From contig NZ_JAUYTT010000008.1 of NCBI RefSeq assembly GCF_030695035.1, forward strand, positions 372,001-436,000: a stretch of 64,000 bases of DNA, written 5' to 3'. The translations under genes were made by a program, and so were the position numbers. Position 1 is the first letter of the stretch. The number at the start of each line of letters is the position of its first letter. This document shows, one piece after another, positions 13,189 through 17,850 of the stretch. Source of the stretch: Frigidibacter sp. (GTDB taxonomy: Bacteria; Pseudomonadota; Alphaproteobacteria; Rhodobacterales; Rhodobacteraceae). A model generated the notes under the pieces. The model was not told the DNA's origin and did not search any database. It saw only the letters and a program-made list of their open reading frames with translations.

Positions 13189-15294
13189 GTGAGCGACGCG
13201 CCCGTGAAAGGCCGCCCGCCGGTGCTGTTCCCGCTCTTCGCAGAGCTGGAAACGCTGGAGGGGGTCGGCCCGAAAACCGCCAAGCTCTTCGCCGGGCTCG
13301 GCGTCGAAAAGCCGCGCGACCTCTTGTTCACCCTGCCGCATTCGGGCGTCGACCGCCGCCCCCGCGCCTCGATCCGCGACTACCTGCCCCCCGCGGTGGC
13401 GACGGTGGAGGTGACGGTCGGCGCGCATTTCCCGCCGCTGCGCAAGGGCGGCCCCTACCGGGTGATGGTTCGCGATTCGGTGACAGAGTTCCAGCTGGTG
13501 TTCTTCCGCGCCAAGGATGACTGGCTGCAAAAGCAGCTGCCGACCGGGCAGAGGCGCATAGTTTCCGGAAAACTCGAAATCTTCGACAGCATCGCCCAGA
13601 TCGTCCACCCCGATCACATCCTGCGGCCCGAAGAAGGCGCGGACCTTCCCGCCTGGGAACCTGTCTATCCGCTGACCGCCGGCCTGACCCAACGGTCCGT
13701 CGCCCGGGCAGCGGCGGCGGCGCTGGAGCGCGCAGCGGACCTTGCCGAGTGGATCGACCCCGCCCTGAAAGCGCGCGAGGGCTGGCCCGACTGGGCCGAG
13801 GCCCTGCGCGCCGCCCATGCCCCCGCCTCGGGCGCCGACATGACCCCGACCGCTCCGGCCCGTGCCCGCCTCGCCTATGACGAGCTCTTCGCGCATCAGC
13901 TGACCCTCGCGCTCGCCCGCGCCACCCTGCGCCGCGGCAAGGGCCGGGCCAGCCGCGGCACCGGGGACTTGCAGCGCAAGGTGCTGGAGTCGCTACCCTA
14001 TTCCCCTACCGGCGCCCAGACCCGCACCCTTGCCGAGATCGCTGCCGACATGGCCAGCGACCGCCGCATGAACCGCTTGCTGCAGGGCGATGTCGGCGCC
14101 GGCAAAACGCTGGTCGCCTTCCTCGCGCTGCTGGTCGCGGTCGAGGCGGGCGGGCAGGGCGCGATGATGGCCCCGACCGAGATCCTCGCGCGCCAACATC
14201 TGGAGAGTCTGACGCCTTTGGCAGAAGCCGCGGGCATCCGGATCGAGCTGCTGACGGGGCGCGACAAGGGCAGTGACCGGGCCGCCAAACTCGCCGCGTT
14301 GGCAGAGGGGCAGATCGATGTGTTGGTCGGCACTCATGCGATTTTTCAGAAGGATGTGAACTTTCACGACCTCCGCCTCGCCGTTGTCGATGAGCAGCAC
14401 CGCTTCGGCGTCGCGCAACGGATGGAGCTGGGGGCGAAGGGGCAGGCAGCCGATGTGCTGGTGATGACGGCCACGCCGATCCCGCGCAGCCTGGCGCTGG
14501 CGCAATATGGCGACATGGATATCAGCCTGCTGGATGAGAAGCCGGCGGGCCGCCAGCCGGTGCGCACCGCGCTCGTCTCCACCGGCCGCATCGACGAGGT
14601 GGTGGACCATCTGCGCCGTGCCGTCGCCGAAGGCCGGCAGGCCTATTGGGTCTGCCCGCTGGTCGAGGAAAGCGAGGTGCTGGACCTGACCGCCGCGACC
14701 GAACGCTTCTTGATGCTGCGCGCCGCGCTTGGCGAGGGGGTGGTCGGCCTCGTCCACGGTCAGATGCCGCCCGTCGAGAAGGACGCGGCGATGGCCGCCT
14801 TCGCCGCCGGGCGCAGCAAGGTTCTGGTCGCCACCACGGTGATCGAGGTGGGCGTGAACGTGCCCAATGCCTCGATCATGGTGATCGAGCGGGCCGAGAT
14901 CTTCGGCCTCGCGCAGCTGCACCAGCTGCGCGGCCGGGTCGGGCGGGGGGCGGCGGAATCCACCTGCCTGCTGCTCTACCAGCCGCCGCTTGGCGGCACC
15001 GCCGAGCGCCGGTTGCAGTTGCTGCGCGAAACCGAGGACGGCTTCCGCATCGCCGAGGAGGATCTGGCGATCCGCGGCGCCGGCGACATGATCGGCACCG
15101 CGCAATCGGGTCTGCCGCGCTTCCGCATCGCAGACCTCGAACGCCAGGCAGCGCTGCTGGCCGTGGCACAAAGCGACGCCCGCGCGCTGCTGGCGGTCGA
15201 CCCCTCGCTGACCGGCCCGCGAGGCCAGGCGGCGCGGGTGCTGCTCTGGCTGATGGAACAGGACCGCGCGATCCGGCTGATCTCGGTCGGGTAA
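13189..15294 (+). CDS. recG: ATP-dependent DNA helicase RecG
   Basis: Branch-migration helicase that reverses stalled forks and processes Holliday junctions. The 701-aa protein begins at a GTG one nucleotide after the ligA stop. The N-terminal wedge (OB) domain begins with the helix-hairpin-helix-like LEGVGPKTAKLF. Helicase motifs are GDVGAGKT near residue 300 (Walker A), DEQHRFG near 400, TATPIPRSLA, VIEVGVNVPNA and QLHQLRGRVGR (motif VI). The C-terminal TRG motif region is present. A hairpin immediately after the stop may terminate ligA-recG. Confidence 0.96.
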   Translation: MSDAPVKGRPPVLFPLFAELETLEGVGPKTAKLFAGLGVEKPRDLLFTLPHSGVDRRPRASIRDYLPPAVATVEVTVGAHFPPLRKGGPYRVMVRDSVTEFQLVFFRAKDDWLQKQLPTGQRRIVSGKLEIFDSIAQIVHPDHILRPEEGADLPAWEPVYPLTAGLTQRSVARAAAAALERAADLAEWIDPALKAREGWPDWAEALRAAHAPASGADMTPTAPARARLAYDELFAHQLTLALARATLRRGKGRASRGTGDLQRKVLESLPYSPTGAQTRTLAEIAADMASDRRMNRLLQGDVGAGKTLVAFLALLVAVEAGGQGAMMAPTEILARQHLESLTPLAEAAGIRIELLTGRDKGSDRAAKLAALAEGQIDVLVGTHAIFQKDVNFHDLRLAVVDEQHRFGVAQRMELGAKGQAADVLVMTATPIPRSLALAQYGDMDISLLDEKPAGRQPVRTALVSTGRIDEVVDHLRRAVAEGRQAYWVCPLVEESEVLDLTAATERFLMLRAALGEGVVGLVHGQMPPVEKDAAMAAFAAGRSKVLVATTVIEVGVNVPNASIMVIERAEIFGLAQLHQLRGRVGRGAAESTCLLLYQPPLGGTAERRLQLLRETEDGFRIAEEDLAIRGAGDMIGTAQSGLPRFRIADLERQAALLAVAQSDARALLAVDPSLTGPRGQAARVLLWLMEQDRAIRLISVG

Positions 15295-15296
15295 GG

Positions 15297-15317
15297 GCGG
15301 TGGCAGAGAGCCGCCGC
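15297..15317 (+). terminator. Hairpin just after recG
   Basis: An 8-bp stem with one G-T wobble (15297-15304 with 15310-15317, loop AGAGA) starting 3 nt after the recG stop. It has no T-tract. Probable end of the ligA-recG transcript. Confidence 0.4.
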
Positions 15318-15807
15318 TGATCCTGGTCGCGTGACCATATCGGCTGTCCTCTGTCGGCCATCGGGCGCCGGGAACGCGCATCGGCCGATCTCGTTCGGCT
15401 CATGCGCGGCACTGCATCCCGCCAAGGGGCTTGCGGTTGGGCATTGCGCAATCTGACCTTCGCGGCCAAGCTTCCCCGACCCGGGCGCCGGCAGCGCTGG
15501 TCGCCCGATCCATGCCCGGCGCTCCTGGATGTCGATCCGGCGCGGGCCGGTTCCCCGGGCAAGCATGGGCATCGTTCGGCTGATGGTCCGGCAATGCCTT
15601 TCCATCCGGATCGCCCTGAAAATACACCCCACCCAGATCATGTCGGCCGCGCCCGATGCATCCTAACAGCGCCGGAGTATAGCCATGCAAGACCTGCGCC
15701 TCACAGGTCCGGCCCGAATTTGCCGCCATGCGGGGCGACGGCCGGCACCGCGCTGTCCATTGTCTGCTCCAAGACTTCGCCGCATCGCCTCTCATCCCTA
15801 TCGTCCA
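15318..15807. other. Gene-poor intergenic stretch
   Basis: About 490 bp without a gene I can support. Several frames are open, but none shows a family motif, a credible ribosome binding site or the codon bias of neighbouring genes. GC falls toward the SOS-box region at its right end. It could contain decayed coding sequence; I recognise nothing specific. Confidence 0.5.
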
Positions 15808-15808
15808 T

Positions 15809-15823
15809 GTTCTTCATTGTTTC
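15809..15823 (+). promoter_or_regulatory. Near-consensus LexA box (SOS box 1)
   Basis: GTTC-N7-TTTC, one mismatch from the alphaproteobacterial LexA site GTTC-N7-GTTC. Its start is 21 bp, two helical turns, from the start of the perfect box at 15830. Confidence 0.45.
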
Positions 15824-15829
15824 GCGAAT

Positions 15830-15844
15830 GTTCTTAAAAAGTTC
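15830..15844 (+). promoter_or_regulatory. Perfect LexA box (SOS box 2)
   Basis: GTTCTTAAAAAGTTC, an exact match to GTTC-N7-GTTC, the LexA operator of Rhodobacter and other alphaproteobacteria. It ends 63 nt before the ATG of the 40-aa gene and lies in an unusually AT-rich segment suitable for a promoter. The spacing predicts LexA repression and DNA-damage induction. Confidence 0.7.
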
Positions 15845-15867
15845 TTTACAGACGCTTCCAAAAATGA

Positions 15868-15882
15868 GAACAAAGCAGCAAC
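15868..15882 (-). promoter_or_regulatory. Near-consensus LexA box (SOS box 3)
   Basis: GAAC-N7-CAAC, one mismatch from the reverse complement form GAAC-N7-GAAC. It ends 25 nt before the ATG at 15908, so it would lie in or near the transcript leader. Confidence 0.4.
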
Positions 15883-15907
15883 AGAAATGCCTGTCAGGAG
15901 CCAGTCG

Positions 15908-16030
15908 ATGTTCGCAGAGATCAAATCCGTCCTCCTCCGCTCGCGCGATACGCTGATTGAGGATGCCGCCGGCGCCGTCGCGCTGATGGTGATGCTGGTG
16001 GCCGGCCTGCACCTTCCTGGGCTGGTTTGA
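15908..16030 (+). CDS. 40-aa single-pass membrane protein, probably SOS-induced
   Basis: I do not recognise a named family, although small proteins with this general look (charged N-terminus, hydrophobic C-terminus ending LHLPG) are familiar from Rhodobacterales genomes. The ATG at 15908 has an AGGAG ribosome binding site at 15896-15900, 7 nt upstream. Residues 1-19 (MFAEIKSVLLRSRDTLIED) form a charged, probably amphipathic segment; residues 20-40 form one transmembrane helix ending LHLPGLV. Three LexA-type boxes precede it. By analogy, Caulobacter SidA is a 29-aa SOS-induced inner-membrane division inhibitor; sequence similarity to it is not claimed. The function is unknown. Confidence 0.75.
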   Translation: MFAEIKSVLLRSRDTLIEDAAGAVALMVMLVAGLHLPGLV

Positions 16031-16377
16031 CCAAGCACTCCTCGGCCGCCGACCCGCGTCCGGGGCAGGGCACACATCTCGCATCCGACGTGCCGCGTCG
16101 AACCGGCGCAGTGATAGAGGCCAGTCGACCACAATCCCTCAGTTGGGGCCAACAAACTAACTCGGCCGGTGACCCGCCGGCACAATGAAATTCCGCGGCG
16201 ACAGATACCTCGCCGCAAACTGACCCGGCCCGCAGCCCTCCGCCGCGCGCCTCTCTCGAACTGCCTCGCGCCTTTTCCACCCGGCGATGCGGCGGGCTAA
16301 CCCCGCCCGTCTGCATCATCCCCTGTCCTGCCGGGTCCGCACCCCGGCCAGCCGGTGACCGGAATCTGCGCCACTTG
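16031..16377. other. Non-coding stretch between the 40-aa gene and a strong terminator
   Basis: About 350 bp with no supportable ORF on either strand and no tRNA-like fold or tmRNA, SRP or RNase P motif that I can see. It ends at a textbook terminator on the plus strand, so it is either a long 3' untranslated region of the SOS gene or carries an independent small RNA. Confidence 0.4.
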
Positions 16378-16412
16378 CCGCCGCCATCCCTCAGGGTGGC
16401 GGCGGTTTTTTT
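16378..16412 (+). terminator. Strong Rho-independent terminator
   Basis: A 12-bp G/C-rich stem (16378-16389 with 16394-16405, one T-G wobble, loop CTCA) followed directly by seven T residues. It is the clearest intrinsic terminator in the window. It ends plus-strand transcription 348 nt after the 40-aa gene, just before the convergent chemoreceptor gene. Confidence 0.85.
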
Positions 16413-16419
16413 GCCCCGC

Positions 16420-17850
16420 TCAGGCGTCAAACCCGTAGGCCAGCCGCAACCCGCCCCAGTGCCGGCCCTTCACCCGGATCGGCGCCGACAGGTCCTTCAT
16501 CGTCACGAAAGCGCCGCCGCCCATGTCGCGCCGGTAGACCTGCAGCAGGAAGGGCGCGGTCGAGTTGCCGGCCTTCAGCGCCACCCGGTCGTCAAAGATC
16601 CGCCGGTTGCGGGCATGGGCGGCGTTCCAGACCGGATCGCGCCCCTGCGGCTGCGAGAATTTGCGGTTATGCGTCGGCAGATAGCCACTGCGATCCACCG
16701 CCGCGCAGAACACCACCCGCGGGTCGAGCGCCAGCGCCGGCTCCTGAAACCCGGGCAGGACCCGGTCGGTGAACTCGGTGAAGCGGGTCAGATATTGCGG
16801 CGGATCGCTGCCCGGCACCGCGCTGTACTCGCGGTCAAAAAGCGCCGTGGCACTGATCTCGCTGCGCTCTACCCCCGCCTCGAACGCGCGGCCGATGGCC
16901 GCCGCCGCGGCCTGCACCTCGGCGATCAGCTGCGCATCGGCCGAATCCGCGCCGAGGCCAACCGCCTCCTGCACGATGATCTCGCTGGCGTCGATCAGCC
17001 CCGAAATCCGATCTCGCGTTTCGTGAATCGCGCTGGCCGTGGTCTCCACCCCCGATCCGATCCGCGCCACGGCCGGCGCAAAGGCGGCAACCGCGCTTGC
17101 AACCTCGGCGCTGCGCCCAGCAATCGCGGCCGCGCCGCTGCGCGTCTCTTTCAGCCCGTCGGAGATATGCTCCATCGCGCGGTCGCTCTCGGCGGCCTCG
17201 CTGCGCACGGCGCCAGCTTCGGCCGAGATCTTGCCGGCATCGGCCTTCAGCCCGCCGATCCGCCCCGAGAGCCCGCGCACGTTTTCCGAAATCGCGCCCG
17301 CCGTGGCGGCAGTCTTGCGCGACAGCTCGTTGATCGCCTCGGCCACCACCGCAAAGCCGCGGCCGGCCTCGCCAGCCCGCGCCGCCTCGATTTTTGCGTT
17401 GATCGCCAGGATGTTGACCTGCCCGGCAATCCCCGCAATCTCGCCATTCGCGGCCTGAATGCCGGTCAGCGCCGCCTCAACCTCAGTCATCCGCCGGTCG
17501 AACTCCTGCACCCAAGTGGCGATTTCCTGCGCGCGGCGGCCCGCACCGCGCACCCGCGCGACCGAGGCTTCCACCGCCTCCAGCGTCTCCTCGGCCCCGC
17601 GCTCCAGCGCCTCGGCGGCGGCCAGCGCCTCGGCATTGGCATGACTCACAGCATCGGCGCCGCGGCGCACGGCCTCCAACTGCGCGATCTGCTGCGCAGC
17701 CTCTGCCTCCGCCTCATCGAGGAAGCCCGCCACATCGACGATGTCGCGCCCCAGCAGCTCCGCCTGATGCAAAAGCCGGGTCGAGCCCTCGCAGCTCTGG
17801 CGGGCAGGGCCCGGCTGCACCTCGACATCGGGGGGAGGGAAGGGAATCAT
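16420..17850 (-). CDS. Soluble methyl-accepting chemotaxis protein
   Basis: Cytoplasmic chemoreceptor of 476 aa without a signal peptide or membrane helix. Long Ala/Glu-rich coiled-coil helices surround the highly conserved hairpin tip (INAKIEAARAGEAGRGFAVVA, near residue 150), which contacts CheA and CheW. The C-terminal part (about 350-476), with GYLPTHNRKFSQP, RIFDDRVA and GRHWGGLRLAY, is a putative sensory domain that I know only as a recurrent C-terminal module of some MCPs. The ATG at 17850 lies 44 nt downstream of a CtrA-like box, consistent with CtrA control of chemotaxis. No che genes are adjacent. Confidence 0.9.
   Translation of the reverse strand: MIPFPPPDVEVQPGPARQSCEGSTRLLHQAELLGRDIVDVAGFLDEAEAEAAQQIAQLEAVRRGADAVSHANAEALAAAEALERGAEETLEAVEASVARVRGAGRRAQEIATWVQEFDRRMTEVEAALTGIQAANGEIAGIAGQVNILAINAKIEAARAGEAGRGFAVVAEAINELSRKTAATAGAISENVRGLSGRIGGLKADAGKISAEAGAVRSEAAESDRAMEHISDGLKETRSGAAAIAGRSAEVASAVAAFAPAVARIGSGVETTASAIHETRDRISGLIDASEIIVQEAVGLGADSADAQLIAEVQAAAAAIGRAFEAGVERSEISATALFDREYSAVPGSDPPQYLTRFTEFTDRVLPGFQEPALALDPRVVFCAAVDRSGYLPTHNRKFSQPQGRDPVWNAAHARNRRIFDDRVALKAGNSTAPFLLQVYRRDMGGGAFVTMKDLSAPIRVKGRHWGGLRLAYGFDA

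Follow-up and report, generated by a model that had tools for sequence, protein, structure and literature searches.

In the window, the whole 64,000-nucleotide stretch of Frigidibacter DNA analyzed here, a 40-codon gene (P0001) for a putative bitopic inner-membrane protein lies downstream of recG and directly behind a cluster of LexA boxes. Comparison of related sequences strongly supports a coding gene under selection, with a conserved operator, linkage to recG, and an order-wide distribution in the Rhodobacterales. LexA control gains strong support from the same comparison, and DNA damage very probably turns the gene on. The product may be a LexA-repressed protein that delays cell division after DNA damage and works like SidA of Caulobacter, a proposal that we hold with belief and doubt evenly balanced. 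LexA binding, damage induction, and the topology of the small protein are features that we infer from the sequence; division arrest, with FtsW as the target, is proposed by analogy only. The features of the locus are as follows.

13189–15294, forward strand: recG, the conserved upstream neighbor (RecG domain by Pfam)
15809–15823, forward strand: one-mismatch LexA-like box GTTC-N7-TTTC, flanking the main operator on its 5' side
15819–15833, forward strand: one-mismatch LexA-like box overlapping the main box
15830–15844, forward strand: main operator, perfect LexA box GTTCTTAAAAAGTTC, matching GTTC-N7-GTTC
15845–15850, forward strand: TTTACA, a putative -35 element immediately after the main box
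15868–15882, reverse strand: LexA box GTTGCTGCTTTGTTC with one mismatch, inverted relative to the main operator and exactly 38 bp away from it
15896–15900, forward strand: Shine-Dalgarno site AGGAG, 7 nt before the ATG
15908–16030, forward strand: 40-codon gene for the putative bitopic membrane protein (P0001), with the ATG at 15908 and the stop codon included at 16030
16377–16413, forward strand: strong intrinsic terminator, a possible transcript end about 350 nt 3' of the small ORF

The small gene and its protein

The 40-codon ORF and the AGGAG site described in the earlier note were both confirmed at these positions. A Shine-Dalgarno-like motif precedes the ORF in 48/50 relatives, for which the script that chose the starts favored such motifs, and in 107/118 listed public loci. 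The protein is 40 residues long in 44 of the 50 relatives; at the listed public loci, the best-scoring start gives 40 residues in 76/118 and 29–43 in the remainder.

Variability across the codon positions follows the order 3 > 1 > 2, with an entropy of 1.51 at position 3, then 1.17 and 0.78. The pN/pS ratios against three congeners were 0.10, 0.16, and 0.23, and the ratio against a fourth, more distant congener was 0.60. Over 946 pairs drawn from 44 sequences the median was 0.61 and the ratio was 1 or more in 16 pairs, values that fit saturated silent sites. Within the genus, the codons are under purifying selection. The codon test ruled out a reading of the element as a non-coding RNA; in Rfam, the locus gave just a sub-threshold match to Atu_C7 at 16315–16410 (16.2 bits against a cut-off of 45), and a scan of 15200–16500 returned zero known RNA families at cut-off.

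P0001 is predicted to consist of an N-terminal helix, a D19-x-x-G22 motif, one transmembrane (TM) helix, and an uncharged C-terminus. The single TM helix claimed from the DNA alone is borne out by prediction: AlphaFold2 places helices at residues 2–11 and 13–39 (mean pLDDT 91.5), and residues 21–40 are uncharged in 49/50 relatives and free of K or R in 50/50. D19 and G22 are invariant in 58/58 aligned sequences, L26, L34, and P37 reach 90%, and the D-x-x-G motif is present in all 50 fetched relatives and in 117/118 listed public ORFs. Residues 1–19 contain 2.6 K or R on average, and their net charge averages close to zero. The positive-inside rule links a K/R-rich segment to the cytoplasmic side and, drawn from the K/R counts alone, suggests an N-inside topology.

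No family in Pfam or NCBIfam matched P0001. For 45 relatives, Pfam gave 0 matches, NCBIfam gave two isolated sub-significant ones, and PHROGs gave three isolated matches (E 0.025–0.042), each from one of the 45. A mobile or phage gene was rejected, as the window protein had no match in plasmid and phage records, and a search for defence genes matched no known one. The PDB sequence search yielded one chance match (E 0.74) and the fold search for P0001 zero matches, both outcomes being expected for a protein that is a single helix.

LexA boxes and the presumed promoter

The genome encodes LexA (TIGR00498 match at G000:C10:75699-76406, 4.6e-55, over cut-off). A perfect box lies directly upstream of this gene (L160, C10:76449-76463; the lexA match ends at 76406), consistent with autoregulation. 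Two more genes have a perfect box in front of them, recA and one for a UvrD/PcrA-type helicase, both recognized through NCBIfam and Pfam. Because the end of the locus truncates the helicase sequence, it scores below the NCBIfam full-length cut-offs.

At the locus, the perfect box and the two one-mismatch boxes reported earlier (15809–15823 and 15868–15882) are all present, together with the overlapping box at 15819–15833 that the earlier note did not list. Its view that a single perfect box is notable in this genome does not stand: perfect boxes number 88, against 99 for a reversed control pattern, and a lone perfect box says little here because its count does not exceed the control. The same counts are a caution against any single-box claim in this genome. 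The window holds three perfect boxes, and its boxes with at most one mismatch number 33 against 29.6 ± 5.5 expected.

The cluster, in contrast to a lone box, exceeds chance, as had been argued. Three further boxes lie within 60 bp of the perfect box, a density reached in 0/40 Markov simulations of 64 kb, the best of which gave two, in a single run. When sequences of the local composition (131 bp, 45% GC) were simulated 20,000 times, a perfect box arose in 137, a perfect box with at least two more in 2, and four boxes as observed in 0. The description of the DNA as AT-poor is right for the genome (the window is 67.7% GC), but the box region is itself AT-richer. Among 294 flanking background pieces from the relatives' loci, which are unmatched for composition, none holds a perfect box.

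The operator consensus over 48 loci reads GTTC-TCAAAAA-GTTC-TTTACA, 14 variable bases, then TGAGAACAAAG-NN-GCAACA; the portion beyond the variable bases is a one-mismatch LexA box that points the other way. At these loci, an extra GTTC, 81–94% conserved at its four positions, often stands 10 bp ahead of the main box, and the TTTACA positions are 69–100% conserved (first three bases TTT in 40, TTG in 7, TGG in 1). In 43/50 relatives, the perfect box is followed, at a distance of exactly 38 bp, by an inverted box with no more than one mismatch. In the window, the box at 15868–15882 overlaps the expected -10 position (TGA-GAACAA), 17 nt 3' of TTTACA. A simple consensus scan called no promoter at the locus, and the promoter position is therefore one that we infer. 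If this placement is right, LexA would sit on both ends of the presumed promoter, and the leader would be about 25–30 nt long.

Among public loci, a terminator occurs within 250 nt of the ORF in 14/112, compared with 2/238 random pieces. Between the small ORF of the window and the terminator at 16377–16413, no gene was assigned.

Joint conservation of box and gene

The first search covered 101 genomes, 61 of them in the same genus and family, and found matches in 52 of those 61. We fetched 50 of the 52, leaving out G005 (E 0.47) and G060 (E 0.28). Alignment A1, used for the profile, comprises 45 of the 50 fetched proteins; alignment A2 used 57 of 104 distinct public proteins, one containing X being among those omitted. 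At E ≤ 0.01, the 45-sequence profile matched 189 of 196 genomes of the order, in 85 of 87 genera, with 12 of the 189 weak (E 1e-4 to 0.01); every listed genome of the order falls in the window's own family. One match per genome was found in 181/189. Eight genomes (G050, G135, G149, G193, G209, G237, G250, and G269) show a second match at E ≤ 0.01, possibly a paralogue.

A class-wide profile search, in which up to 25 first-look candidates were scored per genome, gave matches in 8/289 genomes at E ≤ 0.05, four of them in the family. The four non-family matches (E 0.0095–0.0445) lie inside frames of 246–560 residues and were taken as chance, so that this sample of 289, at up to 25 candidates per genome, held no convincing homologue outside the family.

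A perfect forward box stands upstream of the ORF in 48/50 relatives, the exceptions being L037 and L044, and 49/50 have a perfect box in either orientation within 150 bp upstream. We also searched the promoter pattern against 84,980 species genomes and found at least 119 matching stretches. Among the 119 listed, 118 precede the small ORF and 117 follow recG; the matches at L253 and L267 begin too close to the end of their stretch for recG to be visible, and the one at L265 finishes too close to it for the ORF to be visible. Eighty titles of the 119 listed name Rhodobacteraceae genera, Rhodobacterales, or unclassified Alphaproteobacteria or Pseudomonadota, and these titles are the basis on which the group is called Rhodobacterales. 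The comparison of relatives that the earlier note had recommended, and on which its claim could have failed, shows ORF and boxes conserved together, and does so across the order. Order-wide, mostly single-copy presence and the lack of plasmid or phage matches suggest vertical inheritance.

These data bear on whether chance LexA-like boxes simply stand beside a spurious ORF, or mark a non-coding RNA. Such a reading could point to perfect boxes being no commoner than the reversed control and to the missing NCBIfam or Pfam family. It is opposed by conservation across the order with length and frame kept, by codon position 3 being the most variable and the pN/pS of 0.10–0.23 against three congeners, and by the rarity of a perfect box both in flanking pieces (0/294) and in composition-matched simulations (137/20,000). 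We consider it refuted by the distribution, the public promoter copies, the codon test, and the box statistics, and give it practically no weight.

Linkage to recG and its exceptions

In 49/50 relatives, recG lies within the fetched 1.5 kb upstream. LexA control of recG is not implied, since the operator lies past the recG stop codon. At L030 (G038:C1), box and ORF are intact and recG is absent from the fetched 1.5 kb upstream; a relocated copy there would show the gene working apart from recG.

Fifteen family genomes negative in the first or the profile search were re-examined, and recG was located in 13. In nine of the 13, recG is followed by a perfect box and by a small TM ORF that has diverged but keeps D-x-x-G; four (L119, L122, L123, and L126) have neither box nor small ORF there. 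The searches therefore under-count, because nine 'negative' genomes keep both elements, and true losses exist as well, because four are without both; it follows from these four that the gene is not indispensable. L119, L122, L123, and L126 represent natural losses or relocations.

Outside the family, 75 genomes were searched and 28 gave loci; none of the 28 has a perfect box within 320 nt downstream of recG. Hydrophobic frames after recG at three of the 28 were judged spurious. As no perfect box follows recG within that distance in these 28 genomes, the element looks like an innovation of the Rhodobacterales group.

The steady linkage (49/50 relatives and 117/119 listed public loci) lends itself to a different account, in which the small membrane protein, made upon SOS induction, would regulate a membrane or repair process other than division, such as a transporter, a respiratory or envelope enzyme, or RecG-linked fork rescue. 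Many small membrane proteins regulate larger ones, and the cytoplasmic N-terminal segment is conserved here besides the TM helix. On the other hand, recG precedes the operator, so that control by it is not to be expected, the linkage may be simple inheritance, and our searches pointed to no partner. We regard regulation of another process as unlikely, albeit the strongest of the alternatives.

Proposed role in delaying division

The role that we favor is a delay of division after DNA damage. Across the Rhodobacterales, LexA would hold the gene of a 40-residue inner-membrane protein off, with two opposed LexA boxes, 38 bp apart, flanking the presumed promoter. DNA damage would lead to RecA-driven LexA cleavage and open the promoter, and the peptide could be made at once, given the presumably short leader (about 25–30 nt) and the good ribosome site. 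With its N-terminus inside and its single helix spanning the membrane, the protein would, like SidA in Caulobacter, bind a membrane part of the septal cell-wall machinery, with FtsW as the prime candidate, and cytokinesis would wait for completion of chromosome repair.

We place most weight on this role because of the SidA pattern, the lack of a SulA match over cut-off, and the multi-box operator. The Pfam SulA family reached its cut-off in 0/149 genomes of the order, the window's own genome included; the one sub-cut-off match scored 21.0 against 23.1 bits and has two internal stops. If SOS arrest occurs in the order, a different inhibitor is therefore to be expected. In Caulobacter, about 97% of SOS promoters have one LexA box, as counted with MEME and hence by another method than ours (PMC12700426, in part). 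By comparison, the multi-box operator hints at unusually tight control, which fits an inhibitor.

Several points stand against division delay. No sequence feature indicates FtsW or division, and the neighbor recG encodes a repair helicase. The TM helix of YneA alone localizes and does not block division, according to an excerpt of PMC13396833; a nearly bare TM protein thus need not inhibit, though SidA does.

A TisB-like toxin would also account for the tight SOS control and the small size; the peptide would then insert into the inner membrane, depolarize it, and bring on dormancy. LexA control of a small hydrophobic inner-membrane peptide is common to both. Order-wide, mostly single-copy presence and the lack of plasmid or phage matches suggest vertical inheritance in the present case; many type I toxins differ in showing no such inheritance. 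The TM half is uncharged in 49/50 relatives, and Pfam matched neither the window protein nor 45 relatives. In the consulted part of PMC11575346, tisB is strongly induced upon LexA cleavage, and its output is held down both by the antitoxin RNA IstR-1 and by a leader whose structure is inhibitory. The leader at our locus is by contrast presumably about 25–30 nt, a good Shine-Dalgarno site is found in 48/50, and no known RNA family at cut-off lies nearby. With neither a long leader nor a known antitoxin RNA evident, a toxin is the less likely reading, and we rate it as improbable.

LexA also influences the gene transfer agent (GTA) in this order, and the protein could serve in GTA production or release. 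DUF2460, which we take to be a GTA tail marker, is present in 172/196 genomes, and in support of a link, putative LexA sites are reported at the D. shibae GTA cluster in the excerpted text of PMC6473078. Yet the marker is missing in 24/196, and 19 of the 20 listed among these keep the ORF; conversely, Caulobacter vibrioides has DUF2460, and no convincing ORF homologue was found outside the family in the class-wide sample. Since 19/20 listed marker-less genomes retain the gene, a GTA role is very unlikely.

Returning to division delay, we tentatively extend it to the order as a whole, a step that we believe slightly less firmly than the role itself: Rhodobacterales may have their own order-wide SOS division checkpoint, in which a peptide fixed beside recG would halt septum synthesis through a membrane-embedded contact with the FtsW complex, and its twin-box operator, with opposed boxes 38 bp apart around the promoter, could place it among the order's most tightly controlled SOS genes.

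Comparison with known damage-induced membrane proteins

The closest known counterpart is SidA of Caulobacter crescentus, likewise alphaproteobacterial and a tiny single-TM inner-membrane protein; it has 29 residues, is SOS-induced, and binds FtsW, as given in part of PMC4211646. It is also LexA-controlled, and the LexA box of its host is GTTC-N7-GTTC (PMC12700426, from an excerpt). The present protein differs in its 40 residues against 29, its conserved cytoplasmic N-terminal segment, and its D-x-x-G motif, and the gene differs in its multi-box operator and its fixed place after recG. SidA was compared here by description, not by sequence; our gene would belong to the SOS-induced small membrane proteins as a kind and is not placed in the SidA family. 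DidA, also of C. crescentus, is another small single-TM division inhibitor induced by damage, but it has 71 residues, is SOS-independent (DriD), and binds FtsN (PMC4211646, same excerpt).

YneA (Bacillus), ChiZ (Mycobacterium), and SosA (Staphylococcus) are bitopic blockers of late division induced by SOS or damage, as described in passages of PMC13396833. That 2026 study shows the TM helix of YneA binding FtsW TM7 and predicts the same for ChiZ and SosA; its models of SidA, ChiZ, and SosA on FtsW fall short of high confidence (PMC13396833, in part). In YneA, ChiZ, and SosA, the parts outside the cell (an extended helix in SosA, otherwise LysM) are considered important for inhibition, whereas our protein is predicted to stop at the membrane. 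SulA of Escherichia coli is a division inhibitor under LexA too, but one of FtsZ (PMC13396833, in part). TisB, from the same species, shares small size, hydrophobicity, the inner membrane, and LexA, and differs in its antitoxin RNA, structured leader, and membrane depolarization (PMC11575346, in part); our locus presumably has no such leader.

The gene had been called undescribed, which holds as far as the family and full-text literature searches reach. Searches of the full-text literature, judged mostly from search listings, turned up neither a description of the gene nor a published SOS division inhibitor for Rhodobacterales; the accessible part of a D. shibae LexA study names other putative targets and no such gene (PMC6473078).

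A gene found in 189/196 genomes of the order and belonging to no Pfam or NCBIfam family is a precise, testable candidate for such an inhibitor. Rhodobacterales are frequent in marine waters and count laboratory models among their members, and in these bacteria the protein could well be what makes division pause during repair. If so, it would be a minimal member, with no outside domain, of the group of SOS inhibitors for which FtsW is the proposed target, and would be useful for asking how a lone helix stops septal wall synthesis.

Other perfect boxes in the genome

Elsewhere in the genome, a reading of L074 by eye as imuA was dropped, as it had no family match. A perfect AT-rich box, GTTCCATTTATGTTC, occurs twice, at L168 (G000:C20:407826-407840) and L169 (413133-413147). 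The two loci are about 5 kb apart, in opposite orientation, and have near-identical flanks; the ORF after the box reads through in L168 and lies in another frame in L169. They look like a duplicated, possibly SOS-controlled gene, with one copy perhaps broken.
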